From an uncultured Draconibacterium sp. (GTDB taxonomy: Bacteria; Bacteroidota; Bacteroidia; Bacteroidales; Prolixibacteraceae), in the NCBI RefSeq assembly GCF_913060805.1, contig NZ_CAJXTC010000030.1:1-64000 (forward strand): a DNA stretch of 64,000 bases, given 5' to 3'. Positions within the stretch are counted from its first letter, which is position 1. Each line of letters starts with the position of its first letter. Positions 1,985 to 37,560 of the stretch are shown here, in pieces. Under the pieces are notes generated by a model. It had not been told where the DNA came from. It saw only the letters and a program-made list of their open reading frames with translations, and did not search any database. The position numbers and the translations under genes were made by a program.

Positions 1985-3184
1985 TTATACGTATTCAATT
2001 TTTACCTTTTTGAAGAATTTGTGTATCAGTAATTTAACAATGCGTTTTACTACAAATTTCCGAAGCTCCAATTCCAGCGGTTGTTCCGGATCCTGATGTG
2101 CCCAATTAATACGTGTTCCAACAATAATATCGATGCAGTCGTGTTGCAGTAAAAGCTTCACAATCTCTTCAGGCGTACTATCCGTAAGCCGCGTGTCGCT
2201 ATCGTAATTTTCCAGTATTTCTTCCACTTTTCCCAAGGTGAGAATTCCTTCAGTAACCATTTCAAAACCTTGCATTTTTGCCGTTGGAGGTAATTTCTCC
2301 AGGTTTTTGTTACCATGCTGAATTTCAACCGTAAGGTCAAGTTCGCGGGCAATAATTTCGGCAGTGGTTCCTCCGCATATAATTTTTTTTCCTTCGAAAC
2401 CCTGGATGCGACCAACAAAATCGTAGTCCTTTATTTTATAGAATGGCGGCCCGGTGATCAGCATAAATTTACGTGGCTCACGAAAATACATTACGCCGCA
2501 ACTTGTGTCATCTTTTACCGAAAACTGGTCGTTCATTACTGCCTGGTTGACAATTTTACGTGCCAGTTTTGTGGCCGAAATATCCGGCATTCGTTTTATC
2601 TGGTTCAGCGCAAAATCCTCGATGTTTTCCATTCCCCACCCAAGTGGATAACGCTGGTTTCCGAGGCCTGATTGTTCAACACCGTCCGACATAAAAATTA
2701 TTCGATCCTCTTTACGCGCAGTAAATTCTTTGCAGTGCAATACTTTGCCCCGGTTTTCTTCGCCCTCAATAGTTAAATTGTATTCTTTTCCCTGCATGGC
2801 CACTCCGTTTCGGAGCACCAAAATTCCCGGGTTGTCGTAATTTACTATTCGCACCTGTCCTTCGTCGTCCAGTTCAATAATGGTGAAGGTGGCATAGCTT
2901 TCTTTTCCGTCGCTGCTTTTTGGCAGAGTTTCCATAATTATGCGCGCGGCCACTTCTGGTTTGGTGTGCAGCAATGAATATTTTAAAGCCATGGTGGAAG
3001 TTAGTGTTGCTAAAACACTCGCTTTAATTCCGTGCCCGATGCCGTCGCTCAGTACTAAAATGGTGCGTCCTTCCTCGCGAATTATGCTCGACTGAAACAC
3101 ATCGCCACAGGCAATTTCGCCTTTCGGTCGCTTTTGCTGAAACTCTATTTCAACGTGGTAATCAGGATTTGTCGTCGTCACCAT
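1985..3184 (-). CDS. SpoIIE-type serine phosphatase with extra C-terminal domain (399 aa), hydrogenase locus
   Basis: A PP2C/SpoIIE-type protein phosphatase, expected to remove phosphate from a Ser or Thr on a regulatory partner. The N-terminal 220 residues carry CGDVFQ, the metal-binding DGIGHG (about residue 47) and SDGVEQSG (about 170). The following 150 residues (from KFMLITGPPFY, including CGGTTAEIIARE) form an additional domain I cannot name. There is no membrane or receiver domain. ATG 3184 overlaps the end of the PAS gene by 23 bases, so the two are probably translated together. The divergent hydrogenase operon encodes two HATPase proteins, one of them RsbW-like, that could supply the opposing kinase activity. 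Confidence 0.85.
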   Translation of the reverse strand: MVTTTNPDYHVEIEFQQKRPKGEIACGDVFQSSIIREEGRTILVLSDGIGHGIKASVLATLTSTMALKYSLLHTKPEVAARIIMETLPKSSDGKESYATFTIIELDDEGQVRIVNYDNPGILVLRNGVAMQGKEYNLTIEGEENRGKVLHCKEFTARKEDRIIFMSDGVEQSGLGNQRYPLGWGMENIEDFALNQIKRMPDISATKLARKIVNQAVMNDQFSVKDDTSCGVMYFREPRKFMLITGPPFYKIKDYDFVGRIQGFEGKKIICGGTTAEIIARELDLTVEIQHGNKNLEKLPPTAKMQGFEMVTEGILTLGKVEEILENYDSDTRLTDSTPEEIVKLLLQHDCIDIIVGTRINWAHQDPEQPLELELRKFVVKRIVKLLIHKFFKKVKIEYV

Positions 3185-4094
3185 AGCGATAGGTTTCAAT
3201 TATGGAGTTTAGCAATTCTTCGGTTTCGGCAGCATTTTCGCCGAGCAGAAAGGCGATTTTCTGCACCGTTTCAATATTTTGTTTGTTGATTTTTCGTGCC
3301 CGGTTAATGATCTCGTCTTGTACCAGCATTGGCGCCGACATATCGCGGAAAACAACGCCAACTACCTTGTTTTTGTATAGTGTTCGTACTGAAACGTGCA
3401 TGAGCTTATTGTTGAATTTTAAATCGCGTTCAGCCAGTTCGTCACCCGAAGTAAGAACGCTCGAAATCATTTTGTAGATCAGATCCGGTACCAGTCCTTT
3501 AACATCGGCACCGGTAAGTCCGGGAATGGTTTCGTACAATTCTTCCGTGTCTTCTCCCATCAGTTTGGCAAAATATTCATTGGAGTCTACAATTTTAAAA
3601 TTGCTGTCTACCATCACAATTCCAGACGATATTTTGTGGATCATTTGCGACGAAACCTGCATCGTTTCCTGCGCTTTTTCCAGGCGTTTCTCAGTTTTTT
3701 TCAATTCAGTTATATCGTTGATGGAGCCAACAATTCCAACGATTTTATTCTCGTTGTCGCGAATCACTGCTTTATTCAGAATAACGTGGTGAGATGTGCC
3801 ATCGCCATGACGAACCTGTGTGTTGTACACCTGAACATCAGGGTTAGCAATCAGTTCTTTGTCCTGCGCCAAATATTTATCGGCCATTTCTTTTACATGA
3901 ACTTCGTGTAAAGGTTTGCCCAGAATTTGCTCCTTCGTTTTGCCCGTAAATTTTTCGTGTGCGGCGTTGCACATCTGGTAAATTCCTTCGGTGTCGCGGT
4001 AAAAAATAGGTATCGGCAGCGCATCAATAATTTTCTGATGAATGGCCGGATCTTCAATATTGCTAGTCAGAAACGATTCTTTGTCGTAAATCAT
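3162..4094 (-). CDS. Two-PAS-domain sensor protein without output domain (310 aa)
   Basis: Residues about 20-130 form a PAS domain (ALPIPIFYRDTEGIYQMCN through a PAC segment ending NDITELKK). A short coiled coil follows (KTEKRLEKAQETMQ), then a second PAS domain (GIVMVDSNFKIVDSNEYFAKLMG through VVGVVFRDMSA). A helical tail of about 50 residues ends the protein. There is no kinase, cyclase or DNA-binding domain, so output must go through a partner, most likely the phosphatase encoded next. ATG 4094 is preferred over TTG 4109. The gene is divergent from the hydrogenase operon. The ligand is unknown; some PAS domains bind heme, flavin or Fe-S clusters, but no cofactor signature is visible. Confidence 0.85.
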   Translation of the reverse strand: MIYDKESFLTSNIEDPAIHQKIIDALPIPIFYRDTEGIYQMCNAAHEKFTGKTKEQILGKPLHEVHVKEMADKYLAQDKELIANPDVQVYNTQVRHGDGTSHHVILNKAVIRDNENKIVGIVGSINDITELKKTEKRLEKAQETMQVSSQMIHKISSGIVMVDSNFKIVDSNEYFAKLMGEDTEELYETIPGLTGADVKGLVPDLIYKMISSVLTSGDELAERDLKFNNKLMHVSVRTLYKNKVVGVVFRDMSAPMLVQDEIINRARKINKQNIETVQKIAFLLGENAAETEELLNSIIETYRYGDDDKS

Positions 4095-4300
4095 GTTTCG
4101 GTTTTTCAAGTTTTACTACTGAAAAATACGCAATTTACAAGGCATATAAAACCGCAGGCGCTTTATATTTCGAGGAATTGTTTAAAAACACTTTTCTGAA
4201 AAATTTTCCGACAGAAATACCGACGAATGTGGCTTGTTTTTATTCATTATAAATTCGGAATAACTTGACTTGCAGCAGTAAAAATAAGTAGTGGTAGAAT

Positions 4301-4308
4301 TATCTTTG
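4301..4308 (+). promoter_or_regulatory. Candidate Bacteroidota -7 box (TATCTTTG) for the hydrogenase operon
   Basis: TATCTTTG fits the TAnnTTTG consensus and lies 22 bases before the GTG start of the first operon gene. A clear TTTG -33 box at the usual spacing is not visible. The whole 4095-4330 interval is the only non-coding space between the two divergent arms, so it must hold both promoters. Confidence 0.5.
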
Positions 4309-4330
4309 TGCCAAGTTTTAAACTGACCAA

Positions 4331-4675
4331 GTGAAATTATCTAAGATTATTGATTTGACCAACGCAAAAGTGGTTGCCGGTGATACCGAAAAAGACCACA
4401 ATTTGCAGAGAGCTTTTAGTTCCGATCTGATGAGCGATGTATTAACGCTGGATACGGAGCATATACTTTTAATTACAGGACTGACCAATTTGCAAATTGT
4501 TCGCACAGCCGAAATGGCCGACATTGAAGTGGTGTTGCTGGCACGTAACAAAACTGCCACGCCCGAAATGATCGAGCTGGCCAACGAAACAGGTTTGGTG
4601 CTGTTGGAAACTCCATATTCTATTTATCGTTCGAGCGGGGTGCTGTTTAAAAACGGCTTAGACCCGGTTTATTAA
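4331..4675 (+). CDS. DRTGG-domain protein 1 (114 aa)
   Basis: A single small DRTGG domain, named after part of the phosphotransacetylase and CBS-protein families. Recognisable stretches are KIIDLTNAKVVAGD, the SDLMSDVL turn and the closing ETPYSIYRSSGVLF. These domains are thought to bind nucleotides or act as protein switches, but none in this context has a proven function that I know of. Translation starts at GTG 4331. It is the first gene of the hydrogenase operon, and its stop shares one base with the ATG of the next gene (TAATG). A second DRTGG protein occurs four genes on. Confidence 0.8.
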   Translation: MKLSKIIDLTNAKVVAGDTEKDHNLQRAFSSDLMSDVLTLDTEHILLITGLTNLQIVRTAEMADIEVVLLARNKTATPEMIELANETGLVLLETPYSIYRSSGVLFKNGLDPVY

Positions 4676-5085
4676 TGAAGTTGGAATTCGACATAGCGAG
4701 TGGCGATTTTAGCAAGGCCGGAAGAGCTTCGAGCCGAATAAAAAAGATGCTGAAACAATTGCAGGTTGATCCGAAAGTGATCAAACGAATTGTTGTGGCC
4801 ATTTACGAAGCCGAGGTAAATGTTGTTGCTCACTCTGTTGGAGGAAAAATGCTGGCCGAAATCGACGGCACAGGAATTACTGTGGTTGTTCAGGATAACG
4901 GACCCGGCATTGAAGATATTGAGAAGGCAATGCAGGAAGGCTACTCAACCGCTACCAAAGCCGTGCGAAATATGGGATTTGGCGCTGGAATGGGCTTGCC
5001 AAATATTAACCGAAACACCGATGAATTTACCATTGAAAGCGAGGTAGGAGAGGGAACAGTTTTAACTTTCAGAAATAATTTTTAG
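4675..5085 (+). CDS. RsbW/SpoIIAB-like anti-sigma-type ATPase (136 aa)
   Basis: A stand-alone HATPase_c domain. The N box is IYEAEVNVVAHSVGG, the G1 box VVQDNGPGIED, the G2 region GFGAGMGLPNI, and TVLTFRNNF closes the fold. RsbW-like proteins phosphorylate an antagonist on Ser or hold a sigma factor. No STAS antagonist and no sigma factor is encoded nearby, so the target may be one of the DRTGG proteins; this is inference. It is coupled to the previous gene by TAATG. It is the natural opposite of the SpoIIE-type phosphatase at 1985-3184. Confidence 0.85.
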   Translation: MKLEFDIASGDFSKAGRASSRIKKMLKQLQVDPKVIKRIVVAIYEAEVNVVAHSVGGKMLAEIDGTGITVVVQDNGPGIEDIEKAMQEGYSTATKAVRNMGFGAGMGLPNINRNTDEFTIESEVGEGTVLTFRNNF

Positions 5086-5088
5086 GAG

Positions 5089-6456
5089 ATGAAGGTTGTA
5101 GAAAAATATCATGCCATAACAGTTGACACGGATAAATGTACGGGCTGCACGCACTGCATGAAAGCCTGTCCAACCGAGGCAATTCGGATACGAGGGGGAG
5201 TGGCGAATATAAATTCCGACCGTTGTGTGGATTGCGGAAACTGCCTGCGTGCATGTCCGGTTGATGCTTTTTATGTAGAGCACGATAGTTTGGAACAACT
5301 AAATAAATACAAATACCGGGTGGTGCTTTTTCCGGCGGTAATGATCGGGCAGTTTCCCGAAATTTATACCGAAGGCAAAATTTACGAAGCCCTGTTGAAA
5401 CTCGGTTTTACCCATATTTTTGAGGTGGAGCAACCCATCGGGATGTTGATTAATGAGATTAAACGTGAAGTTGAAAAGTCGACACGTAAACCAATGATCT
5501 CATCGTTTTGTCCCGCCATTGTTCGTTTGATACAATCGCGCTATCCGTCGCTGGTCGATAATATTGTTCCGGTGAAAGCACCGCATGATTTGGCGGCTTG
5601 TCATGCTATCGAGTTACTGGCAAAACAAGGTGTTAAACGCGAAGAAATAGGCACTTTTTATGTGTCGCCGTGTTCGGCAAAAATGGCGGCTGTAAAGCGT
5701 CCTTTGGGCGAGGAAGTATCGGCTGTGGATGGCCTGATTAAAATGAGTGATTTATACAATCACATTATGCGGGTAATCGACAAGGAAGAAAAAACCGATA
5801 CGGCTCCGTTGCGCAAAAACCTAACGCTCGATGGTATTTTGTGGAGTCTTCCGCGTGGCGAAGCAAGGCACTTTAAACGCAATTCGATGGCGGTTGATGG
5901 CATCCACAATGTGGTTAAAATTCTGGAACGAATGGAAAATGATGAAGTTCCGGTGCTCGATTTTCTGGAACTGAAATCGTGCCACCAGGGATGTGCAGGC
6001 GGAATTTTGCTTACTGGCAACCGTTTTCTAACTGTTGAGCGTCTGCAAAAACGATCGAAACGTTATCCGCATGCTTCATCCATCGATATCTCGGCAGTGA
6101 GCTGCCTGGGAATAAAGGATAAAATGAAAGCCAATCCTATTGAACCGCGTTATGTTTTTGCGCTGGATACCGATCGACTTAAAGCACTGGAAAAAATGCA
6201 GAAAGTAGATCGGATTTTATGCCAGCTTCCGGGAATTGATTGCGGTAGTTGTGGCGCGCCCAACTGTCATGCACTTGCTGAAGATATGGTGCAGGGAAAA
6301 GCAAAAATGACAGATTGTATTTTCTTACAAAACAGGTACTTAAACGAGAATAAAATAAACATCGAAAAAGCGACAAAAAACCTGGAAAAAGCCTGGGGGA
6401 AAAATCGTTTTGACGCTGACTGTAACAGAAGAGGAGGTAGAAATGAAGGTTTCTGA
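5089..6456 (+). CDS. Sensory-type [FeFe]-hydrogenase homologue, HydS-like (455 aa)
   Basis: The N-terminus has two [4Fe-4S] ferredoxin motifs (CTGCTHCMKACP and CVDCGNCLRACP). A hydrogenase H-domain follows, in which the H-cluster cysteines survive: FCPA (about 141), SPCSAK (about 195) and SCHQGCAGG (about 297). The Cys that normally shuttles protons (first Cys of TSCCP) is Phe here. Near residue 384 a further four-Cys Fe-S domain (CGSCGAPNC with a later Cys) appears. Related proteins encoded upstream of bifurcating hydrogenases, such as the Thermoanaerobacter HydS, have very low activity and are regarded as H2 or redox sensors. The C-terminal 40 residues are charged and helical. The gene overlaps the next by 14 bases. 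Confidence 0.88.
   Translation: MKVVEKYHAITVDTDKCTGCTHCMKACPTEAIRIRGGVANINSDRCVDCGNCLRACPVDAFYVEHDSLEQLNKYKYRVVLFPAVMIGQFPEIYTEGKIYEALLKLGFTHIFEVEQPIGMLINEIKREVEKSTRKPMISSFCPAIVRLIQSRYPSLVDNIVPVKAPHDLAACHAIELLAKQGVKREEIGTFYVSPCSAKMAAVKRPLGEEVSAVDGLIKMSDLYNHIMRVIDKEEKTDTAPLRKNLTLDGILWSLPRGEARHFKRNSMAVDGIHNVVKILERMENDEVPVLDFLELKSCHQGCAGGILLTGNRFLTVERLQKRSKRYPHASSIDISAVSCLGIKDKMKANPIEPRYVFALDTDRLKALEKMQKVDRILCQLPGIDCGSCGAPNCHALAEDMVQGKAKMTDCIFLQNRYLNENKINIEKATKNLEKAWGKNRFDADCNRRGGRNEGF
6432..6437 (+). promoter_or_regulatory. Shine-Dalgarno site AGGAGG setting the start of DRTGG protein 2
   Basis: AGGAGG lies five bases before ATG 6443, inside the 3' end of the upstream gene. Such perfect sites are unusual in Bacteroidota, where translation often ignores Shine-Dalgarno pairing. 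It decides for ATG 6443 against the in-frame ATG at 6410. It may also be a trace of origin from another phylum. Confidence 0.65.
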
Positions 6457-6775
6457 ACTGGTTGAAAAATTTGGATTAAAAGTCTTTTCCGGCGAATCCG
6501 GACTTGAGAATGAAATTTCCGGCGGGTATGTTTCCGATCTGCTGAGTGATGTAATGGGAAATGCGCAGGAAGGGCAGGTGTGGATAACACTTCAAACCCA
6601 CCAAAATGTAATGGCTATCGCCTCGCTGAAAGAGCTCGCAGCAGTGATCCTGGTGAAAGGTTTTGAACCCGAAGAAGACACACTCGAGCGTAGTAACGAA
6701 GAAGGTATTCCTGTACTGGGAACCGACAAAGCCACATTCGAAATGGCAGGAAATTTATTCATCACCTTAACGTAA
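6443..6775 (+). CDS. DRTGG-domain protein 2 (110 aa)
   Basis: A second single-domain DRTGG protein. The order matches protein 1: KVSELVEKFGLKVFSGE, a SDLLSDVMG turn (compare SDLMSDVL in protein 1), a central hydrophobic strand AVILVKGF, and a closing hydrophobic segment. The two share the fold but little else, so they look like an old duplication. ATG 6443 follows a strong AGGAGG site and overlaps the end of the HydS-like gene by 14 bases, which suggests coupled translation. The function is unknown; a binding partner of the RsbW-like ATPase or a nucleotide sensor is plausible. Confidence 0.8.
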   Translation: MKVSELVEKFGLKVFSGESGLENEISGGYVSDLLSDVMGNAQEGQVWITLQTHQNVMAIASLKELAAVILVKGFEPEEDTLERSNEEGIPVLGTDKATFEMAGNLFITLT

Positions 6776-6779
6776 TCCG

Positions 6780-7520
6780 ATGCAAAAATTCAGGGCCGAC
6801 CTACATATTCATACCGTACTTTCGCCCTGTGCCGACCTGGAAATGGCTCCGCGTAAAATTGTGGAACAAGCCCGGGAGGCAGGATTGCATATTATTGGAA
6901 TCACCGATCATAATTCGACCTTAAACGCCAAAGTAATTCGCGATTTAGCGCACGAAAAGGGAATTCTTGCACTTACCGGCGTAGAAATTACTACCAAAGA
7001 AGAGGTGCATTGCCTGGCGTTTTTCGAGGATGACGAGAAGCTGGATAAATTCCAGCAGTATTTGGAACAGAACATTATGCATGTTCCAAATCCGGATGGA
7101 CACTTTGGTTATCAGCCGGTTGTTGATGAGGATGAGAAAGTGTTGGAACTGGTTCCATATTACCTCACATCAGCATTAAAAAAAGGTATTTCGTCGGTTC
7201 AAAAGTACGTGTACGAGCTGGGCGGAATTTTTATTCCGGCACATGTTAACCGGCCGTTGAACGGTTTATTTAGCCACCTGGGTTTTATTCCGAAAGACCT
7301 TGAATTTGATGCCATGGGAATTACTGGAAAAACCAGCGAAAAGCATGTTCGAAAACATTATGATTTAGGTGATAAAATTTCGTTAATTTATAATTCAGAT
7401 GCTCATTTTTTAGAACAGATTGGAACCCGATATTCTGTTTTTAATATTCAGGAATTAACTTTTTGTGAAGTTAAAATGGCTCTGAATCAGCAAGATGAAC
7501 GATTTGTTGAAATTATATGA
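6780..7520 (+). CDS. PHP-domain phosphoesterase (246 aa)
   Basis: A PHP metal-dependent phosphoesterase of the TrpH/YciV group. Metal-binding motifs are all present: DLHIHT at residue 7, GITDHN at about 40, the Glu of GVEIT at about 67, PAHV at about 155 and NSDAH at about 207. Relatives hydrolyse 3',5'-bisnucleotides (pAp) or trim short RNA from the 5' end. Its repeated presence in hydrogenase operons of other bacteria is known as a pattern, but its job there is not. It sits four bases after the DRTGG gene, and its stop overlaps the next start (ATGA). Confidence 0.88.
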   Translation: MQKFRADLHIHTVLSPCADLEMAPRKIVEQAREAGLHIIGITDHNSTLNAKVIRDLAHEKGILALTGVEITTKEEVHCLAFFEDDEKLDKFQQYLEQNIMHVPNPDGHFGYQPVVDEDEKVLELVPYYLTSALKKGISSVQKYVYELGGIFIPAHVNRPLNGLFSHLGFIPKDLEFDAMGITGKTSEKHVRKHYDLGDKISLIYNSDAHFLEQIGTRYSVFNIQELTFCEVKMALNQQDERFVEII

Positions 7521-8065
7521 AAACACTGTCCGAACATATTCTGGATATTGTGCAGAACTCGGTTAGCGCAAAAGCGACATTGATTGAAATCATAGTTGAG
7601 GAGGACAAAATAGCAGACCTTTGTTCATTAGTAATCAGAGACAACGGCTGCGGAATGAGCAAAGAAACGCTGGCCAAAGCCATAAATCCGTTCTTTACAT
7701 CGCGAACTACCCGAAAAGTAGGTTTGGGCATTCCGCTTTTAAAGCATAGTGCTGAGGCTGCCGGTGGCAGTTTTTCCCTCGAATCGGAGTTGAATGTGGG
7801 TACTGTTTTAACGGCCCGTTTTCAGCTGTCGAACATCGACCGACCACCACGTGGCGACATTGCAGAAACCTTGTACCTAACGTTTTTAAGCTACACCGAC
7901 GGGAATTTGGTGTACCGCCATAAAACAGAAAAGGGTGAGTTTCGGATAAGTTCCGATGAGTTGAAAGAAGTGCTGGGCGATGTTTCGTATCAGCAAAAGG
8001 AAATACGCGAAGGGATTTTGGAACTGATAAAATCGAATTTAGAAGAAATAGAGGCAACGAAGTAA
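7517..8065 (+). CDS. HATPase-domain histidine-kinase-like protein (182 aa)
   Basis: A sensor-kinase-type ATPase domain with no sensor or dimerisation domain. Boxes seen: N box HILDIVQNSVSA, G1 VIRDNGCGMS, F-like NPFFTSR, G2 KVGLGIPLLKHSAEAAGG, then GTVLTARF. The last 70 residues, after DRPPRGDIAET, form a small unrecognised domain. The N-terminal LSEHILDIVQNS resembles kinases found beside hydrogenases in Clostridia and Thermotogae. It overlaps the PHP gene by four bases. It differs clearly from the RsbW-like ATPase at 4675, so the operon has two different ATPases. Confidence 0.85.
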   Translation: MKTLSEHILDIVQNSVSAKATLIEIIVEEDKIADLCSLVIRDNGCGMSKETLAKAINPFFTSRTTRKVGLGIPLLKHSAEAAGGSFSLESELNVGTVLTARFQLSNIDRPPRGDIAETLYLTFLSYTDGNLVYRHKTEKGEFRISSDELKEVLGDVSYQQKEIREGILELIKSNLEEIEATK

Positions 8066-8085: not shown

Positions 8086-8481
8086 ATGACTAAAATTAAA
8101 ACACTGGCTGATCTTCGGAAGATGAAAGAAGAAGCTCAGTCGAAAATCAAACTCAGGGAAAACAGTGCGAATCCCGATCAGGTTGTGCAGGTTAAAGTGG
8201 GTATGGCCACATGTGGAATTGCATCCGGCGCAAAAGAAACCATGAAATATTTTGTGGAAGAGCTGGAACAGGAAGCCATTGATGCGGTTGTTACTCAAAC
8301 CGGTTGTATGGGATACTGTTATGCCGAGCCCACTGTTGAAGTAAAATTGCCGGGAAAAGAACCGGTGGTTTACGGACACGTGAAAAAAGAAAAAGCCCGC
8401 GAAATTATCGACTCATACATTAAACGCGGCGAGCTGGTTGATGGAATTATTCCGGTAAGCTTTAAAACCATAGACGACTAA
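8086..8481 (+). CDS. Thioredoxin-like [2Fe-2S] ferredoxin (131 aa)
   Basis: A stand-alone thioredoxin-fold ferredoxin domain with cysteines in the NuoE-like pattern: ATCGIASGA and TGCMGYC, a three-Cys signature visible here. Residues 1-40 are helical and charged. In HydABC clusters such a small ferredoxin often precedes HydB and resembles the N-terminal domain of HydB itself (compare ICGGTGCKASE and GCFGFC in the next gene). It may pass electrons between the trimer and its partners, or serve the sensory protein. It lies 20 bases before hydB. Only three obvious cluster cysteines are seen, so a fourth ligand or a changed cluster is possible. Confidence 0.82.
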   Translation: MTKIKTLADLRKMKEEAQSKIKLRENSANPDQVVQVKVGMATCGIASGAKETMKYFVEELEQEAIDAVVTQTGCMGYCYAEPTVEVKLPGKEPVVYGHVKKEKAREIIDSYIKRGELVDGIIPVSFKTIDD

Positions 8482-8501
8482 AAACTTTAAACCTTTAACT
8501 T

Positions 8502-10295
8502 ATGACTGACTACAAAATGCATCTTTTAATTTGTGGTGGTACCGGGTGTAAAGCATCGGAAAGCGACGAAATTAAAAACAGGCTAAACCAATTGATTCAC
8601 GATCTTGGGCTCGAAGATGAAGTTCAGGTGGTGCTGACCGGTTGTTTTGGTTTTTGCGAAAAAGGACCCATTGTAAAAGTATTGCCCGACAACACTTTTT
8701 ACGTGCAGGTGTCGCCAAACGATGTTGTTGAAATTGTTGAGGAACACATTGTAAAAGGCCGGCCGGTAAAACGTTTATTATATACCGATCCCACTAACGA
8801 TAAACAAATCAGCGATTCAAAAGGCATGGATTTCTACAAAAAGCAAATCCGTATCGCTTTAAAGAATTGTGGTTTTATCAATCCCGAAAATATTGACGAA
8901 TACATTGCCCGCGATGGTTACCAGGCTTTGGGAAAATGTTTGTCTGAACTGACTCCCGAAGAGGTAATTAAGGAGGTGAAAGACTCTGGCTTACGTGGCC
9001 GCGGTGGTGGCGGTTTCCCAACAGGATTAAAGTGGGAGATCACAAAAAATGTGGAAAACGACCAGAAATATGTGGTTTGTAATGCCGACGAGGGCGACCC
9101 CGGTGCATTTATGGACCGCTCGATTTTGGAAGGCGATCCGCATTCGGTGCTGGAAGCAATGGCCATTTGCGGCTATTGTATTGGCGCCGACAAAGGACTC
9201 GTGTATATCCGGGCCGAATATCCGCTGGCTATTCAGCGTTTGAAAATCGCCATTAAACAAGCCGAAGAATATGGTTTGATCGGCGATGATATATTAGGAA
9301 CCGGTTTTAATTTTCATATTGAATTACGTTATGGAGCCGGAGCTTTTGTTTGCGGCGAAGAAACCGCGCTGATCCACTCGATGGAAGGTTTGCGTGGAGA
9401 ACCAACTTTTAAACCGCCGTTCCCATCCGTTTCAGGTTACATGGGAAAACCTACCAACGTAAACAACGTGGAGACTTTTGCAAACATTCCGGTAATTCTG
9501 AATAAAGGTGCTGAATGGTTTAGTAAAATCGGTACCGAAAAATCGAAAGGCACAAAAGTGTTTGCCCTGGCCGGAAAGATCAACAATGTTGGTTTGATCG
9601 AGGTGCCAATGGGAACAACACTACGCGAAGTGATCTACGATATCGGTGGCGGAATTAAAGACGGAAAAGAGTTTAAGGCCGTTCAAACCGGTGGCCCGTC
9701 GGGCGGCTGTTTAACGAAAGAAGATTTGGATATCCCGATTGATTACGATAACCTGCTGGCATCCGGTTCAATGATGGGATCGGGCGGAATGATCGTTATG
9801 GACGAGAACGATTGTATGGTTTCCATTGCGAAATTCTATCTTGATTTTACGCTGGAAGAATCGTGTGGAAAATGTACGCCATGCCGTGTTGGAAACAAAC
9901 GCCTTTACGAATTGCTGGATAAAATTACCCAGGGAAAAGGAGAAGAGCAAGACATTGAAAAGTTGAAAGATTTAAGTGTGGTAATTAAAGATACGGCACT
10001 TTGCGGTTTGGGACAGACTTCTCCAAACCCGGTGCTTTCAACCATAAATAATTTCGAGCACGAATACCATGCTCACGTGCACGACGGTAAATGTCCGGCG
10101 GGGCAGTGTAAATCGCTGTTGCGTTACGATATTGTAGAGGATCTGTGTACCGGTTGTACACTTTGTTTCCGCAATTGCCCGGTTGGAGCCATTTCCGGCG
10201 AGCGCCGTGCACCGCATTTTATCGATCAAACATTGTGTATTAAATGTGGCGTGTGTTACGAGAAATGTAAATTCAATGCAATAACCCTAACCTAA
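8502..10295 (+). CDS. hydB: Electron-bifurcating [FeFe]-hydrogenase subunit HydB, NuoF-like (597 aa)
   Basis: The flavin- and NADH-binding subunit. Domains in order: thioredoxin-like [2Fe-2S] domain (1-90; CGGTGC, GCFGFC), NADH/FMN-binding NuoF core (GRGGGGFPTG at about 165, CNADEGDPGAF, GAGAFVCGEETAL), SLBB-like part, [4Fe-4S] motif ESCGKCTPC (about 452), and a C-terminal 2x[4Fe-4S] ferredoxin domain (CTGCTLCFRNCP and CIKCGVCYEKC, from about 547). The extra N- and C-terminal domains mark the bifurcating type known from Thermotoga and Acetobacterium. The expected reaction is H2 against NAD+ and ferredoxin together. It is followed after 17 bases by hydA. Confidence 0.94.
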   Translation: MTDYKMHLLICGGTGCKASESDEIKNRLNQLIHDLGLEDEVQVVLTGCFGFCEKGPIVKVLPDNTFYVQVSPNDVVEIVEEHIVKGRPVKRLLYTDPTNDKQISDSKGMDFYKKQIRIALKNCGFINPENIDEYIARDGYQALGKCLSELTPEEVIKEVKDSGLRGRGGGGFPTGLKWEITKNVENDQKYVVCNADEGDPGAFMDRSILEGDPHSVLEAMAICGYCIGADKGLVYIRAEYPLAIQRLKIAIKQAEEYGLIGDDILGTGFNFHIELRYGAGAFVCGEETALIHSMEGLRGEPTFKPPFPSVSGYMGKPTNVNNVETFANIPVILNKGAEWFSKIGTEKSKGTKVFALAGKINNVGLIEVPMGTTLREVIYDIGGGIKDGKEFKAVQTGGPSGGCLTKEDLDIPIDYDNLLASGSMMGSGGMIVMDENDCMVSIAKFYLDFTLEESCGKCTPCRVGNKRLYELLDKITQGKGEEQDIEKLKDLSVVIKDTALCGLGQTSPNPVLSTINNFEHEYHAHVHDGKCPAGQCKSLLRYDIVEDLCTGCTLCFRNCPVGAISGERRAPHFIDQTLCIKCGVCYEKCKFNAITLT

Positions 10296-10312
10296 TCAGA
10301 AACCTGGAAATT

Positions 10313-12064
10313 ATGGATACAGTAAATCTTACGATAGATAATAAACCGGTTGTGGTAAAATCAGGGACCACAATTCTTGAAGCGGCATCGGGTGTTGGGA
10401 TGCATATTCCAACGCTTTGCCACATGAAACTTGATGATCTGAACATTGAAAACAAACCTGGTGGCTGCCGTATTTGTGTGGTTGAGGTGGAAGGACGAAG
10501 AAACCTGGCGCCGGCTTGTTGTACCGATGTGAGCGAAGGAATGAAGATCAATACCCACTCGATGCGGGTGATAAATGCACGCAGAACGGTAATGGAGTTG
10601 ATTCTTTCAGATCACCCATTCGACTGTTTGATTTGTGCAAAATCGGGTAACTGCGACTTGCAGGATATGGCGCACAATCTCGGAATTCGCGAAATTCATT
10701 ATAAAGGAGAGCAGTCGACCTACCGCGAAGATACTTCTCCGGCTATTATTCGCGAGGTGGACAAATGTATTATGTGCCGTCGTTGCGAAACCATGTGTAA
10801 CGAAGTGCAAACCGTAGGTGTTTTATCGGCCATTAATCGTGGTTTCGAATCGGTTGTTTCACCCGCTTTCGAAATGAACCTCGATCACTCGGTGTGTACG
10901 TATTGTGGTCAATGTGTGGCCGTTTGTCCAACCGGAGCATTAACTGAAGTTGACGAAACCGGAAAAGTGATTCGTGCGCTTTCCGACCCTACAAAAACTG
11001 TAATTGTTCAAACAGCTCCTGCCGTGCGTGCTGCATTAGGCGAGGAGTTTGGAATGGAAGCCGGATCTTTGGTAACCGGAAAGCTGGTGGCTGCTTTGCG
11101 CCGTCTAGGTTTCGATCATGTTTTTGATACCGACTTTGCTGCCGACCTTACCATTATGGAAGAAGGTACCGAATTACTGAATCGTTTGGGAAAACATTTG
11201 GCAGGCGATAAAGATGTTAAACTTCCAATACTAACTTCTTGCTGTCCGGCGTGGGTGAAATTCTTCGAGCACCAATTCCCGGAAATGAAAGATATTCCTT
11301 CAACAGCACGATCGCCACAGCAAATGTTTGGTGCAATTGCCAAAACTTATTTTGCCGATCAGTTGGGAATTAAACGTGAGGATTTGGTTGTTGTTTCGAT
11401 TATGCCATGTGTGGCAAAAAAATATGAGTGTGGCCGCGATGAGTTTAAAACCAACGACAACCCGGATGTTGATCATGCCATTACAACCCGCGAGTTGGCA
11501 GCACTGATCAAACTTTCGAATATCGATTTTACCGCACTTCCAAACGAAGACTTTGATAATCCACTGGGGGAATCTACAGGAGCCGGTGTAATCTTCGGAA
11601 CCACAGGTGGTGTAATTGAAGCGGCAGTTCGTACAGCGTATGAAGTTCATACAAAAAAAGAATTGCCAAAATTAGATTTTGATGAACTGCGTGGTATGGA
11701 AGGAATCCGTGAAGCGACCATCGATTTTGACGGATTACCAATAAAAATTGGAATTGCGCATGGTTTGGGTAACGCACGTAAACTGCTGGAAGATATTCAG
11801 GCAGGAAACAGCGAATTCCACGCCATTGAAATTATGAGCTGCCCCGGTGGTTGTATCGGTGGTGGTGGTCAACCTTATCACCATGGCGATGCGGGTATTC
11901 TGAAAAAGCGTCAAGCTGCCTTGTATACTGAAGACAAGAACAAGACGCTGCGCAAATCGCACTTGAATCCACATATTATTGAGTTGTATGAAAAGTTCCT
12001 GGGTGAACCGATGAGTGAAAAAGCACATCATCTGTTGCATACGGAATACTTTGATCGTACATAG
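10313..12064 (+). CDS. hydA: [FeFe]-hydrogenase catalytic subunit HydA (583 aa)
   Basis: Makes or oxidises H2 at the H-cluster. An N-terminal [2Fe-2S] domain (PTLCHM, GGCRICVVEV) is followed by a His/Cys3 cluster (HPFDCLICAKSGNC) and two [4Fe-4S] motifs (CIMCRRCETMC, CTYCGQCVAVCP). The H-domain has TSCCPAW (about 307), MPCVAKK (about 364) and MSCPGGCIGGGGQP (about 507). All H-cluster ligands and the proton-shuttle Cys are present. The usual MACPGGC has Ser for Ala. The extra C-terminal [2Fe-2S] domain of Thermotoga HydA is absent. Maturases are not in the window. Confidence 0.95.
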   Translation: MDTVNLTIDNKPVVVKSGTTILEAASGVGMHIPTLCHMKLDDLNIENKPGGCRICVVEVEGRRNLAPACCTDVSEGMKINTHSMRVINARRTVMELILSDHPFDCLICAKSGNCDLQDMAHNLGIREIHYKGEQSTYREDTSPAIIREVDKCIMCRRCETMCNEVQTVGVLSAINRGFESVVSPAFEMNLDHSVCTYCGQCVAVCPTGALTEVDETGKVIRALSDPTKTVIVQTAPAVRAALGEEFGMEAGSLVTGKLVAALRRLGFDHVFDTDFAADLTIMEEGTELLNRLGKHLAGDKDVKLPILTSCCPAWVKFFEHQFPEMKDIPSTARSPQQMFGAIAKTYFADQLGIKREDLVVVSIMPCVAKKYECGRDEFKTNDNPDVDHAITTRELAALIKLSNIDFTALPNEDFDNPLGESTGAGVIFGTTGGVIEAAVRTAYEVHTKKELPKLDFDELRGMEGIREATIDFDGLPIKIGIAHGLGNARKLLEDIQAGNSEFHAIEIMSCPGGCIGGGGQPYHHGDAGILKKRQAALYTEDKNKTLRKSHLNPHIIELYEKFLGEPMSEKAHHLLHTEYFDRT

Positions 12065-12114
12065 TATTAATATTTGTAAAGTATCTAATTGTCTAAAATC
12101 TAAAAGTCTAAAAG

Positions 12115-12597
12115 ATGCCAAAAATTAAATTAGCAGAGAATACAGTACAGCTCATAAAAGATATTTGTGTTGAATTTGAAAATAAGGAAAGCGAACTGAT
12201 AAATGTGCTTCACCAGGTGCAAAGTAAATTGGGTTATTTGCCCGCTGAGGTGCAGGAAGTAATTGCAAAAGAGCTAAAAACCTCGGTAGCAAAAGTGTAC
12301 GGTGTTGTAACTTTTTACAGCTTTTTCACGATGATTCCTCAGGGCGAGAATCCAATCTCGATTTGTATGGGAACCGCCTGTTATGTTCGTGGTGCCGAGC
12401 AGGTATTAAACGAATTCAAACGCCAGTTAAAAGTGGAAGTTGGAGAGTCGACCGAAGATGGTAAATTCTCGATTAACTGCTTACGCTGCGTGGGAGCCTG
12501 TGGTTTGGCTCCGGTGGTAACCGTTGGAGAAAAAGTCTATGGCCGTGTAGCACCAACCGATGTGAAAAAGATTATCGCAGAATACCATAACCGATAG
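12115..12597 (+). CDS. hydC: Electron-bifurcating hydrogenase subunit HydC, NuoE-like (160 aa)
   Basis: A small thioredoxin-fold [2Fe-2S] subunit that passes electrons between flavin and cluster chain. The helical N-terminus (LLxVQxKLGYLP-like: LHQVQSKLGYLPAEVQEV) precedes the four cluster cysteines, CMGTAC and CLRCVGAC. The length is typical of NuoE. The gene order hydB-hydA-hydC differs from the more common hydC-hydB-hydA. It is the last gene of the operon, 50 bases after hydA, and a hairpin terminator follows. Confidence 0.93.
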   Translation: MPKIKLAENTVQLIKDICVEFENKESELINVLHQVQSKLGYLPAEVQEVIAKELKTSVAKVYGVVTFYSFFTMIPQGENPISICMGTACYVRGAEQVLNEFKRQLKVEVGESTEDGKFSINCLRCVGACGLAPVVTVGEKVYGRVAPTDVKKIIAEYHNR

Positions 12598-34076: not shown

Positions 34077-35867
34077 TTAATACCTTTCGCGTTTCGTATA
34101 TTTTGTATGCAATAAATGATGCGATACTTCACCAAGTGGTTCTTTCAGGAAATCTTTGTACAACTTCGTAATTTCATGATTCTCGTGCGATTTACGAATC
34201 GGCAATCCTTCGTCTTCGGCGTAAATCGCCTCGGCGCGTTTCTGCCGGATTTCCGGATTGGTAGGAATTGGCTGTCCACCACCACCGAGGCAACCGCCCG
34301 GGCAAGCCATAAATTCAACAAAATGATAATCGGCAGTTCCGGCACGCACTGATTCCATAACAGATTTGGCATTTATCAATCCGTGAGCAATGGCGCATTT
34401 TAGTTCAACACCATCTAGAAATGCCCACTCTTCAACCGGATTTTCAATTTTTATGGTTGCTTCGCGAATACCATCGCTTCCCCGTACCGGAGTAATATTC
34501 AGATTCTCAAACGGAACCTCACGGCCGGTAACAATCTCGTAGGCAGTACGCAAAGCGGCTTCCATAACGCCGCCGGTAGCTCCGAAAATTACTGCAGCTC
34601 CCGATGATTCTCCCATTAAACGATCGTATTTTGCCGGCTCCAGTTTATTGAAATCCAAACCGGCCTGTTTAATAAGGATCGCCAGCTCGCGCGTAGTTAA
34701 AACATAGTCGACATCGCGGTAGCCACTATCGTGCATTTCCGGCCGGAAGGCTTCATATTTTTTAGCGGTACACGGCATTATCGAAACCGAAACAATGTCC
34801 TCCGGTTTAATATTTCGAGCATTGGCGTAATAGGTTTTTACCAGCGCTCCGAACATTTGTTGCGGCGATTTGCAGGTCGACAGGTTTTTCAAATGTTCCG
34901 GGAACATGTGTTCAATGTATTTAATCCATCCCGGCGAGCACGATGTTGCCATTGGCAACGAAACCGATTCATCTTTATCGACTAACGCTTTTTTCAGGCG
35001 GGTAAGTAGTTCGGTTCCTTCTTCAATAATGGTAAGGTCGGCGGTAAAGTCAGTGTCAAGGACCGAATCGAATCCCAAACGTTTTAAAGCGGCCACCATT
35101 TTGCCGGTTATGCTTTTCCCGGGTTTCATTCCCAGCTCTTCGCCTAATCCCACACGCACGGCAGGCGCTGTTTGCACCACAACATGTTTGTTCGGATTGG
35201 CAATGGCTTCCCAAACTTCTTCAATGTAGTTTTTCTCAACCAGCGCTCCGGTAGGACAGTGGTTTACACATTGTCCGCAGTTGGTACAAACCACGTCGCG
35301 CATGGCTTTTTCGAAGAAGGTTGTGATCTTCATTTTATCGCCTTTGTGCGCCACAGTAAGCGCATTTACGCCCTGTAATCCGGCGCAGGTTCGCACACAA
35401 CGCTGGCAGCGAATACATTTGCTGTCGTCTTTAATTATCGACGGCGAATAAGCATCGATCGAGAAATGTTTTAAGGGAACCAGTTCGATAAAATCCTGGG
35501 TCATAATTTTATACTCCGAAGCAAGTGTTTGCAGTTCGCAGTTTCCGTTTCGGTAACATTTGGTACAATCGGCATTATGCTCGGCCAACAGCAGTTCAAT
35601 GATTTGTTTGCGCGAATTACGAACTTTTAAACTATTGGTAAGGATTTCCATACCTTCTTCGCACGGTGTTGCACAGGCCGCCGACAATCGGTTTTGCCCG
35701 GCTACCTCAACCACACAAACGCGGCAGTTTCCGGCAACGCACAAATCTTTATGATGACAAAGTGTTGGAATGGTAATTCCTTGTTCTTCTGCTGCTTCCA
35801 GAATGGTTTTTCCTGTTGTAATCTCAACCGGAAAACCGTTTATGGTGATGTTTACTTTTTTGCTCAT
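34077..35867 (-). CDS. Second [FeFe]-hydrogenase catalytic subunit, variant L1 motif (596 aa)
   Basis: Domains as in HydA at 10313: [2Fe-2S] (PTLCHHKDLCVAGNCRVCVVEV), His/Cys3 (HNADCTKCYRNGNC), two [4Fe-4S] motifs (CIRCQRCVRTC, CTNCGQCVNHCP) and the H-domain. Motif L1 reads TSCSPGW (about 307) where TSCCPxW is canonical: the first Cys, the proton shuttle, is kept, and the second, a ligand of the H-cluster cubane, is Ser. L2 is MPCTAKK and L3 is MACPGGCLGGGGQP, both normal. The DNA codons confirm Ser (TCG). It belongs to an operon with NuoE- and NuoF-like genes, order hydC-hydB-hydA. Confidence 0.93.
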   Translation of the reverse strand: MSKKVNITINGFPVEITTGKTILEAAEEQGITIPTLCHHKDLCVAGNCRVCVVEVAGQNRLSAACATPCEEGMEILTNSLKVRNSRKQIIELLLAEHNADCTKCYRNGNCELQTLASEYKIMTQDFIELVPLKHFSIDAYSPSIIKDDSKCIRCQRCVRTCAGLQGVNALTVAHKGDKMKITTFFEKAMRDVVCTNCGQCVNHCPTGALVEKNYIEEVWEAIANPNKHVVVQTAPAVRVGLGEELGMKPGKSITGKMVAALKRLGFDSVLDTDFTADLTIIEEGTELLTRLKKALVDKDESVSLPMATSCSPGWIKYIEHMFPEHLKNLSTCKSPQQMFGALVKTYYANARNIKPEDIVSVSIMPCTAKKYEAFRPEMHDSGYRDVDYVLTTRELAILIKQAGLDFNKLEPAKYDRLMGESSGAAVIFGATGGVMEAALRTAYEIVTGREVPFENLNITPVRGSDGIREATIKIENPVEEWAFLDGVELKCAIAHGLINAKSVMESVRAGTADYHFVEFMACPGGCLGGGGQPIPTNPEIRQKRAEAIYAEDEGLPIRKSHENHEITKLYKDFLKEPLGEVSHHLLHTKYTKRERY

Positions 35868-35888
35868 AATCTTTCTTTTTCCGGTTTA

Positions 35889-37073
35889 TTAATAAATCAT
35901 CTCTTCTCTAAAGTTCTCTACAATCGACGAGAACGAATTGGCCACCGATTGCCCCAATCCACACTTAGCCGTGTATTGCATCGTTTCGGTAAGACGCAAT
36001 AGTTTGTCGAGGTAGGAAGCAGGTTTTTCACCTCGTTTCACCGCTTTAATGCCCAGCAGCAATTGCTGGCATCCAACGCGGCACGGTGTACACTGGCCAC
36101 ACGATTCTTCGCGGAAAAATTCGAGGTAATTATCGAGCACATTAAACATCGAGCGCGAACTATTAAAAAGCATCATCGAGCCTCCGGTGGGCAGCGAAAT
36201 GCCCGTAAGTTTGCCTTTAAATCCAATGGCAGCATCTTTAAATTTTTTGCGCGGAACAAGAAAGCCTGAAGCTCCGCCAACCTGCACCGCTTTGGTATCG
36301 CCATCGCCAAATTCGTAAACAAAATCCTGCAAACTCATTCCCAGTTCCAACTCGTAAATACCCGGTTTTGGTGTATCGCCCGATACCGAGAACAACTTGG
36401 TGCCACGTGAGTACTGAACACCCAAATCGTAGAATTTTTTTGCACCGTATTTAAAAATAGTGAAAGTGTGCACCAACGTCTCCACATTGTTGATTACGGT
36501 AGGTTTTCCCTTGAAACCGGACTGCGTGGGAAATGGAGGTTTGTTACGCGGCTCGCCACGTTTGCCTTCCATCGATTCCATCAAAGCCGTTTCTTCGCCG
36601 CAAATGTAGGCACCGCTGCCCATAAAAATCGATATTTTGAAATCGAGATCCGTTTCTTTGCAGTAGTAGTCGAACTCGTCGATGACTTTGTTTAATTCGG
36701 GCAACAGAAATTTATATTCGCCCCGCAGGTAGATATAACCTCTTTTGGCTCCCGTAATATAACCGCAGATGGCCATGGCGGTAAGTACTTTGTACGGTAC
36801 GCGCGATAAAATCTCGCGGTCTTTAAAAGTGCCGGGTTCGCCTTCGTCGGCATTACAGATTACGTATTTTTCTTTTTCTTTTGATTCGGCGGTAAGTTTC
36901 CATTTTAGTCCGGTCGGGAAACCGGCTCCACCGCGTCCTTTTAACTCCGAACTGATCAGCTCGTTGATAAGATCTTGTGGTTTCTTTTTTAGTGTTGATG
37001 AGAGAATTTTTTCCCAGTCGTTTTCATTTCTGAAAATGAAATCTACACGTTTTAATTGATTTGAAGTTGCCAT
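35889..37073 (-). CDS. NuoF-like NADH-binding hydrogenase subunit (394 aa)
   Basis: Core NuoF only: GRGGAGFPTGLKW (about 48), CNADEGEPGTFKDREIL, GSGAYICGEETALMESMEG (FMN), SLBB-like middle, and the [4Fe-4S] site ESCGQCTPCRVGCQQLL with AKCGLGQS. It lacks both the N-terminal thioredoxin-like domain and the C-terminal double ferredoxin domain of HydB at 8502. Such short forms occur in NADH-linked hydrogenases that are thought to work without ferredoxin, e.g. in Syntrophomonas. There are 10 bases to the NuoE gene. Confidence 0.92.
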   Translation of the reverse strand: MATSNQLKRVDFIFRNENDWEKILSSTLKKKPQDLINELISSELKGRGGAGFPTGLKWKLTAESKEKEKYVICNADEGEPGTFKDREILSRVPYKVLTAMAICGYITGAKRGYIYLRGEYKFLLPELNKVIDEFDYYCKETDLDFKISIFMGSGAYICGEETALMESMEGKRGEPRNKPPFPTQSGFKGKPTVINNVETLVHTFTIFKYGAKKFYDLGVQYSRGTKLFSVSGDTPKPGIYELELGMSLQDFVYEFGDGDTKAVQVGGASGFLVPRKKFKDAAIGFKGKLTGISLPTGGSMMLFNSSRSMFNVLDNYLEFFREESCGQCTPCRVGCQQLLLGIKAVKRGEKPASYLDKLLRLTETMQYTAKCGLGQSVANSFSSIVENFREEMIY

Positions 37074-37083
37074 AATTGCCGGT

Positions 37084-37560
37084 TTAGTGATTCACATTTA
37101 CTTTCATATAACCCGTTAAAATCTCCCGCACTTTTTCTGGCGTGAGCTCGGTATAAATTTCATCGTTTATCAGCATTGCCGGTGCCTTATGACACCAGCC
37201 CAGGCAGTTGGTTTCAAGCAGCGTGAATTGTTTGTCGGGGGTGGTTTCCCCTAAACTAATTTTCAGCATGTCTTGTATGGCAAACAAAATCTGGTTTTTG
37301 CCTTTCATGGCACAGGTAATGGTTTTGCACACACGAATAATGAACTTTCCGGTAGGTTTGGTTTCAAGGAATGAATAAAAGGTGGCAGTTCCGTACACGT
37401 CGGCAGCCGGAATATCAATTTCCCGGGCGATCTCGATCATCGAACGTTCCGAAAGGAATTTTTCCTGTTCAACCACTCCTTGTAAAATGGGTAAAACACT
37501 CTCCCGGCTTCGACCATGTTTCTCCGCCAGGTCTTTAACTAACGTTTGGATTGGATCCAT
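37084..37560 (-). CDS. NuoE-like [2Fe-2S] hydrogenase subunit (158 aa)
   Basis: First gene of operon 2. Helical N-terminus (ESVLPILQGVVEQEKFLSERSMIEIAREIDIPAADVYGTATFYSFL-type) and four cluster cysteines, CKTITC and CLGWC. The second pair has a Trp where NuoE has Gly/Arg-type residues (compare CLRCVGAC in HydC at 12115). The size is normal. It probably transfers electrons next to the flavin subunit. It starts after the 444-base non-coding region at 37561-38004. Confidence 0.9.
   Translation of the reverse strand: MDPIQTLVKDLAEKHGRSRESVLPILQGVVEQEKFLSERSMIEIAREIDIPAADVYGTATFYSFLETKPTGKFIIRVCKTITCAMKGKNQILFAIQDMLKISLGETTPDKQFTLLETNCLGWCHKAPAMLINDEIYTELTPEKVREILTGYMKVNVNH

Follow-up and report, generated by a model that had tools for sequence, protein, structure and literature searches.

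By what means [FeFe]-hydrogenases let anaerobes sense H2, and how the signal is then relayed, is an open question. That hydrogenases of the sensory groups C and D do so via kinases or phosphatases is, as far as the parts of the literature on which we draw here and below go, an already published idea. The HydDB classification calls the C3 hydrogenases 'phosphatase-linked (putative)' (PMC5037454), and HfsB is a PAS-bearing [FeFe]-hydrogenase that is named together with HfsC, a protein with homology to serine phosphatases (PMC11837493); deletion of hfsB, but not of hfsC, raised ethanol yield and adhE transcripts (PMC5707799). In Thermoanaerobacter, genes for a histidine kinase and a group-D-like hydrogenase are reported to lie 5′ of bifurcating hydrogenase genes (PMC3608648). 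TamHydS, too, is described as being encoded 5′ of a bifurcating hydrogenase, next to an ATPase that resembles histidine kinases (PMC8163306). Enzymes of both groups have been characterised (TmHydS, TamHydS), while the onward route of the signal is given as unresolved in the parts of this literature used here. We have analysed a cluster of this kind in a stretch of 64,000 nucleotides (the window; contig NZ_CAJXTC010000030.1, positions 1 to 64,000) from an uncultured Draconibacterium sp. of the Bacteroidales. In it, a small kinase, HATa, is paired with a stand-alone DRTGG protein, DRT1, next to a hydrogenase-like protein, HydS. Our preferred explanation, to which we assign a probability of about 0.4, is that two units meet at this locus, such that HydS gates HATa, HATa phosphorylates DRT1, and a phosphatase from the second unit, where present, resets the switch.

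A preliminary description of the locus had taken it for one single module, in which a SpoIIE phosphatase and a two-PAS sensor are divergent from a hydrogenase-linked operon. All the genes named in it are present at or near the positions that it gave, and its interpretation overall is partly supported, but the window instead joins two separable units, the SpoIIE/PAS pair being a unit of its own. The smallest recurring unit in our gene maps consists of DRT1, a candidate switch of 114 amino acids (aa; 4331..4675, + strand), HATa, a GHKL kinase of 136 aa that resembles RsbT and SpoIIAB (4675..5085, +; Pfam HATPase_c_2), and HydS, a PAS-less [FeFe]-hydrogenase-like protein of 455 aa (5089..6456, +). 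The maps cover 106 loci, to which 20 and another 10 were added; part of the loci are the best 80 of 560 relatives of the query, and these 80 are, by title, from Bacteroidales or Bacteroidota. Near relatives include Draconibacterium, with 98% kinase identity in L060. Once duplicates and modules of the STAS/RsbT type had been dropped (L062, L063, L083, L086, L169, L058, L165, L166), neighbours, judged on domain ends, could be counted at 128 HATa loci with 127 distinct kinase sequences. DRT1 lies directly 5′ of HATa in 123 of them and is fused to it in two more (125/128 in total); L155 has no room upstream of HATa. The gene after HATa encodes HydS in 119 loci (117 within 300 bases, and L092 and L155 just beyond), the second DRTGG protein, DRT2, in eight, and in one, L090, the contig ends there. 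Gene order is kept across the Bacteroidales loci compared far beyond chance. In the two natural fusions (L140 and L141), DRT1 and HATa form one protein, in which Pfam finds HATPase_c and, just under its cut-off, DRTGG (3.1e-5) for L141; these fusions give linkage, not an interface.

The ATP-binding boxes of a GHKL Ser/Thr kinase are intact in HATa, a predicted kinase, with E45, N49, D74-x-G76-x-G78 and the GFGAGMGL box kept at 95% or more of 70 clusters. Its clear matches in the PDB are SpoIIAB (1TIL, E 1.1e-5 with phmmer). The preliminary description had called it RsbW-like, but it is equally RsbT-like: in a search of the phylum, its next homologues were frames of 142 and 155 aa with 38% identity and BLASTP scores of 66.6 and 67.8 bits. 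By Pfam, these frames lie 3′ of a STAS protein of 129 or 122 aa, in a row made up of an RsbR-like STAS protein, a small STAS protein, the RsbT-like kinase and a SpoIIE-type protein, which we take to be the RsbR-RsbS-RsbT-PP2C arrangement. HATa-like matches were found in 9 of 395 genomes of the phylum sample, and two of these (G436, G297) are such STAS/RsbT modules. Judged from gene order, DRT1 fills the slot of the small STAS protein 5′ of the RsbT-like kinase. The likeness to the stressosome, RsbR-RsbS-RsbT with RsbU or RsbX, thus consists in a small RsbT-type GHKL kinase gene directly after that of a partner of ~115-130 aa, with sensor and PP2C genes near; in contrast to the stressosome, the partner here is a DRTGG and not a STAS protein, the sensor is an [FeFe]-hydrogenase, and the PP2C gene belongs to another unit. 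Two loci from outside our sample of the window's order (L160, L161) carry a variation on this theme, in that DRT1 directly precedes a CBS-kinase fusion gene, the CBS pair being N-terminal to the kinase (L160 7992-8924, Pfam CBS 1.4e-26; L161 7479-8408, by sequence). These fusions hint at an adenine-nucleotide input.

If DRT1 takes the place of a STAS protein, the question arises whether the genome has such a protein elsewhere. The host genome of the window (5.48 Mb in 79 contigs, 99.5% complete) contains two matches to PF01740. The open frames that hold them are 560-576 codons long, and both open reading frames (ORFs; 546 and 563 aa) read as a transporter with a STAS tail, presumably of the SulP type. 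PF13466 (STAS_2) gave nothing above cut-off in the whole genome. At the cut-offs used for these two families, no stand-alone STAS protein, including the RsbR/RsbS type, was found genome-wide, such that the earlier statement that no STAS gene is present can be extended from the cluster to the genome for stand-alone proteins. The accompanying statement on sigma genes holds for the cluster; an ECF (extracytoplasmic function) sigma-like gene lies elsewhere in the window, and a genome-wide sigma search was not made. Likewise, the cluster shares with the SpoIIAA-SpoIIAB-SpoIIE system the SpoIIAB-like kinase boxes and a SpoIIE-type PP2C fold, but differs in that no stand-alone STAS antagonist was found in the genome and no sigma partner was seen in the cluster.

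A wider view was obtained from 198 genomes of the window's order that are at least 90% complete (the order sample). HATa occurs in 67 of them, of which 15 are without a STAS match, six without a SpoIIE match and two without either, and STAS is not associated with HATa (52/67 HATa genomes vs 110/131 others). It could be argued that this is ordinary partner switching, in which the target of HATa is a sigma factor or STAS protein with its gene at another place and the DRTGG neighbours are incidental. The PDB relatives of HATa are indeed SpoIIAB anti-sigma factors, and separate modules of the STAS/RsbT type exist in some relatives (L058, L165, L166). However, the only STAS matches in the host genome are the two transporter tails, more than a fifth of the kinase-bearing genomes (the 15 of 67) do without any STAS match, and at nearly every locus DRT1 is either the gene immediately before HATa or part of one gene with it, which makes this alternative highly improbable. 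That HATa is simply an anti-sigma factor of the RsbW kind whose STAS partner lies far away was rejected on the grounds that no stand-alone STAS protein was found in the genome at the cut-offs used.

With respect to the proposed switch itself, both DRTGG proteins of the preliminary description are present, though DRT1 scores 24.0 bits in Pfam and so falls just under the DRTGG cut-off of 25.2, whereas DRT2 (110 aa from the ATG at 6443; ~6443..6775, +) lies above it with 31.3 bits on a longer reading from 6410. The two are paralogues (hhalign probability 99.5). An AlphaFold2 (AF2) model of DRT1 (pLDDT 94.6) matches the DRTGG structure 2IOJ with a Z score of 17.5 and a root-mean-square deviation (rmsd) of 1.8 over 113 residues, and the CBS-DRTGG pyrophosphatase 3L2B with Z 14.6 and rmsd 2.2 over 108 residues, while the N-domains of HPr kinase and of MurE/MurF fit less well; as modelled, DRT1 has the DRTGG fold. 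STAS was absent among the 50 best matches listed in either fold search with DRT1, which excludes nothing, and when the profiles of both DRTGG proteins were run against PDB sequences, the matches were weak and partial. DRT1 thus shares its fold with the CBS-DRTGG pyrophosphatase, AF1212 and the HPr kinase N-domain. Unlike these, DRT1 and DRT2 are stand-alone proteins of 110-114 aa with an SDLxSD motif that is absent, by eye, from the sole other DRTGG match in the genome, a Pta-like frame of 700 codons; the latter has a counterpart of Thr49 and none of Ser31 or Ser35 (by eye, the profile match not being significant).

The preliminary description had asked for conserved Ser/Thr residues in both DRTGG proteins, and these were found. 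After clustering at 80%, all of the 86 DRT1 and 71 DRT2 clusters (100%) have Ser/Thr at positions 35 and 49, and 98% and 97%, respectively, have it at position 31; in DRT1, D32 is invariant too, and R58 and K74 are conserved. Seven further rows, two from the fusions and five from DRT1 proteins that are not part of the order sample (L160-L164), all keep Ser35, Thr49 and Asp32, while Ser31 is kept in 5/7. In the model, Ser31 follows the strand 27-30, Ser35 lies in a short helix (34-37), and Thr49 ends the strand 45-49. Such invariance fits a phosphorylation site and equally a binding pocket.

The main rival to our explanation is that DRT1 is no phospho-switch. DRT1, HATa and HydS would then form an ATP-dependent complex without phosphotransfer. 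A metabolite or nucleotide would bind in the DRTGG pocket, which would thereby control the activity or assembly of the hydrogenase, with the Ser/Thr residues lining the pocket. Since DRTGG-fold kin such as the MurE/MurF N-domains, the CBS-DRTGG pyrophosphatase and the HPr kinase N-domain include ligand-binding enzymes, the invariant Ser/Thr beside conserved Asp, Arg and Lys may form such a pocket, and the placement of S35 at a helix start and T49 at a strand end would suit it. The fusion of HATa to two CBS domains in L160, and by sequence in L161, and the presence of HydA in 66 of the 67 kinase genomes point the same way. On the other hand, the kinase boxes of HATa are preserved, and the proteins closest to it in sequence are RsbT-like kinases. 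Furthermore, 13 of the 92 loci longer than 15 kb are without DRT2 and the two genes that follow it in the window, several of these also being without HydA or HydB in reach, such that unit 1 is not simply part of an enzyme operon. We consider the pocket alternative unlikely, though it comes before all other rivals.

HydS brings in the hydrogenase side of the proposed switch. C141, C195, C298 and C302, the H-cluster cysteines, and the C-terminal Cx2Cx4Cx16C are present in 75/75 clusters, the eight cysteines of its two Fer4 domains are kept at 95% or more, and no PAS domain was found in the window's HydS by the Pfam scan. On these features HydS matches the architecture given for the group D (M2e) enzyme TamHydS, which is likewise described as having no PAS, two Fer4 domains, the same C-terminal motif and a place near HydABC and a GHKL ATPase (PMC8163306). 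It differs in the residues hand-equated with M497 and M353 of CpI: the first is R in 67 clusters, K in 5, F in 2 and N in 1, and the second T in 63, S in 11 and G in 1, so that the commonest pair is Arg/Thr (Lys/Ser in the window) as against Leu/Ser in TamHydS, a comparison by hand with the residue set of one enzyme. The group C and D labels used here for hydrogenases rest on architecture and not on HydDB. That HydS senses H2 is something we infer in common with the literature.

Given this likeness, one may ask whether the locus holds anything beyond what has been published, that is, a sensory hydrogenase cluster of group C or D with kinase and phosphatase genes to which the DRTGG proteins are accessory. 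The 'phosphatase-linked (putative)' class C3 of HydDB (PMC5037454) and the histidine kinase and group-D-like hydrogenase genes upstream of the Thermoanaerobacter bifurcating hydrogenases (PMC3608648) would both agree with this. However, the parts of the literature on such clusters that we draw on name no DRTGG protein. Among open-licence papers, none was found on a DRTGG-kinase pairing beside a hydrogenase, nor with a PHP domain added, and the sole paper with both 'DRTGG' and 'hydrogenase' concerns, in the part consulted, lactate growth and an AAA-DRTGG protein that is unrelated (PMC10102598). We thus hold it to be improbable that the published picture covers the locus in full.

Downstream of HydS, DRT2 is followed by a PHP-domain protein of 246 aa, a probable phosphoesterase (6780..7520, +; Pfam PHP 4e-10), and by HATb, a second GHKL ATPase of 182 aa that resembles histidine kinases and MutL (7517..8065, +; Pfam HATPase_c 1.2e-14, HATPase_c_3 and a MutL-type match) and in which the Pfam scan found no HisKA. 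HydS, the PHP enzyme and the second HATPase are thus each present, by ORFs and Pfam, as the preliminary description had it. In the PHP protein, D7, H9, H11, E69, H77, H155, D207 and H209 are kept at 95% or more in the cluster alignment, and they resemble what we take to be a PHP metal site. Of the 92 loci above 15 kb, 74 have all of DRT2, PHP and HATb, and 74 have HydA or HydB. The DRT2-PHP-HATb block lies upstream of unit 1 in L121, L133, L152 and L154. The minimal unit is DRTGG-kinase-HydS, and the second DRTGG protein belongs with PHP and the second HATPase.

The genes of the bifurcating hydrogenase follow at 8086..12597 (+) in the order 2Fe-2S protein (8086-8481), HydB (8502-10295; named from sequence and homology across loci), HydA (10313-12064; NF040763, 903 bits, above cut-off) and HydC (12115-12597). 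In the order sample, HydA occurs in 66/67 HATa genomes vs 64/131 others. A second trimeric hydrogenase set is found in the window at 34077-37560 on the − strand, with a HydA of 596 aa that matches NF040763; its other two members, named by eye, are HydB-like but short (394 aa) and HydC-like (158 aa). In relatives such as L053, L100, L103, L107 and L112, the genes immediately before DRT1 make up a set whose HydB has ~400 aa. The ECF sigma-like gene mentioned above belongs to a row of three gene types at 41448-45338, which we take to be ECF sigma-like, FecR-like and TonB-receptor-like and which are apparently unrelated to the hydrogenase signalling cluster.

Unit 2 is divergent from unit 1, across an intergenic region (4110..4330) where the promoters of both units are presumed to lie. 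It consists of a PAS protein of 315 aa without a hydrogenase domain (3162..4109, −; Pfam PAS) and a SpoIIE-family PP2C phosphatase of 404 aa (1985..3199, −; Pfam SpoIIE 4e-15). The PP2C fold of the latter matches 3pu9 (Z 22.8, rmsd 3.4, 217 residues), and matches to this part filled the fold search; its C-terminal domain (residues ~240-404, window 1985-2482) belongs to no Pfam family. Conserved stretches in this domain are GPP, TTxE, TEGILT and GTRINxAHQDP. The first PAS of the sensor scores well in Pfam, whereas the second, which the preliminary description had also counted, scores weakly.

The origin of this pair can be traced through its relatives. Over its residues 99-315, the PAS protein of the window shows 38% identity (166 bits) with the C-terminal end of a hydrogenase-PAS protein in L114. 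The latter, a frame of 676 codons, combines Fer4, hydrogenase and iron-sulfur (FeS) parts with a PAS that Pfam scores weakly; in the corresponding proteins of L085 and L147, the PAS passes the Pfam cut-off. The window's protein thus consists of an N-terminal PAS and a region with homology to group-C-type HydS, namely to the PAS and helix at its C-terminus. The idea that it is an unrelated sensor was rejected, most of its sequence matching this tail. Directly upstream of SpoIIE in 45 loci (L058, L060, L061, L062, L063, L083 and L086 having been dropped) there is a hydrogenase-PAS gene in 21, a copy cut by the contig end in one, PAS alone in 20 and no partner by script in three, i.e., PAS or group-C-type HydS in 42/45; of the three, L123 does have a hydrogenase-PAS gene upstream, and L108 is truncated by the end of the locus. 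In a tree of SpoIIE, from which L108, L123 and L057 were dropped as well, all 20 PAS-only rows fall into a single group (100/100) that sits on a long branch (midpoint-rooted, no outgroup, unsettled bootstrap, with a long-branch warning). Unit 2 can therefore be read, from its sequence relationships, as derived from a sensory hydrogenase/phosphatase pair of group C type whose hydrogenase half is missing here. The window's clade probably lost this half and has another PAS instead, and a single loss, rather than a gain, is likely.

This resembles the 'phosphatase-linked' C3 sensors and HfsB-HfsC in that a gene for a Fer4-H-domain-FeS-PAS protein stands immediately 5′ of the same SpoIIE family in relatives. 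Unlike them, the window's clade has no hydrogenase part and carries an extra PAS in that place; HfsB and HfsC were compared by description. The third H-cluster motif is usually CxxxC. Many of the group-C-type HydS proteins have CxxC there (such as YCEGC), among them L114 6094-8121, L085 6339-8207, L126 6313-8205 and L192 3075-4979, while L185 and L123 keep CxxxC.

The two units are statistically coupled. The full-length SpoIIE family occurs in 74/198 genomes of the order sample, in 53/67 with HATa vs 21/131 others (odds ratio 19.8, relatedness uncorrected). HydA presence explains part of this co-occurrence, HydA being found in 73/74 SpoIIE-family genomes as well as in nearly all HATa genomes; within the 130 HydA-bearing genomes, the family is present in 53/66 with HATa vs 20/64 without (odds ratio 9.0, relatedness uncorrected). 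Moreover, in L085, L114, L126 and L192 the hydrogenase-PAS and SpoIIE genes stand directly 5′ of DRT1 in the same direction.

RsbT binds and activates RsbU. By analogy, HATa could bind and activate the SpoIIE phosphatase, with DRT1 as a clamp that holds HATa and with phosphorylation of DRT1 secondary or absent. The RsbT-like sequence of HATa and the strong co-occurrence just described speak for this arrangement, but 14 of the 67 kinase genomes have no SpoIIE family, the SpoIIE gene has an evident partner of its own, PAS or C-type HydS, upstream in 42/45 cases, and L178, from a genome of the same genus without a HATa match (G019), keeps PAS-SpoIIE beside hydAB. We regard it as distinctly unlikely. 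That SpoIIE is an obligate partner of HATa was rejected since the family is missing from those 14 genomes; together with L178 and with L057 (see below), this makes the phosphatase a frequent companion and not a fixed part.

Returning to the two-unit explanation, its steps would be as follows. HydS would read H2 or the redox state of ferredoxin via its H-cluster and FeS chain and gate HATa. HATa would bind DRT1 and phosphorylate it, most likely at the invariant Ser35, such that DRT1 would play toward HATa the part that RsbS, a STAS protein, plays for RsbT. DRT2 would work in a parallel sub-unit with the PHP phosphoesterase and HATb, and the phosphatase of unit 2, where present, would be the best candidate to reset DRT1 or DRT2. 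In this way, two sensory units would converge on one bifurcating hydrogenase. A DRTGG protein as phospho-switch, which the preliminary description had put forward, is plausible as a hypothesis: linkage, fusions and invariant Ser/Thr residues agree with it, while a ligand pocket fits equally. A more far-reaching version is that DRTGG has replaced STAS as the phosphorylated switch of an RsbT-type kinase in a hydrogenase-gated form of partner switching, with Ser35 of DRT1, and perhaps of DRT2, as the site and, where present, a PP2C phosphatase that stems from a different sensory hydrogenase pair for the reset. The second arm, with DRTGG, GHKL and PHP proteins in parallel, might synthesise or break down a small signalling molecule. 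This version we consider doubtful.

Several observations weigh against the two-unit explanation. The phosphatase step is its weakest link, as the absence of the SpoIIE family from 14/67 kinase genomes (and of any SpoIIE match from 6/67) means that an eraser of this kind is not indispensable. SpoIIE of L057 (G029) is split over three ORFs of 255, 101 and 70 codons, either by decay or by an assembly error, next to an intact unit 1, and the genome co-occurrence counts ignore phylogeny. At the input, HydS cannot be the sole source everywhere, because DRT2 and not HydS follows HATa in 8/128 loci. In DRT1, Ser31 is replaced by Ala or Cys in two of the five rows from outside the order sample, and the possible ligand pocket has been discussed above. 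At the output, the neighbour families of unit 1 reach 15/129 loci each at most, with no clear output gene among them, and no sigma or transcription-factor output was identified among these neighbour genes.

For the question of how the signal of a sensory [FeFe]-hydrogenase is passed on, comparative genomics nevertheless points to a DRTGG protein and an RsbT-like kinase as the likely immediate partners. The two are encoded side by side at almost all loci and in a few cases make up a single protein. It also narrows the question to one invariant serine. If phosphorylation were shown, a DRTGG-kinase pairing in the position of the STAS protein would be a new variant of a well-known bacterial switch. 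In that case, switches built on a kinase and a phosphatase, as known from stress responses and sporulation, would be seen to work with a partner other than STAS, and DRTGG proteins near hydrogenase genes would gain a function.

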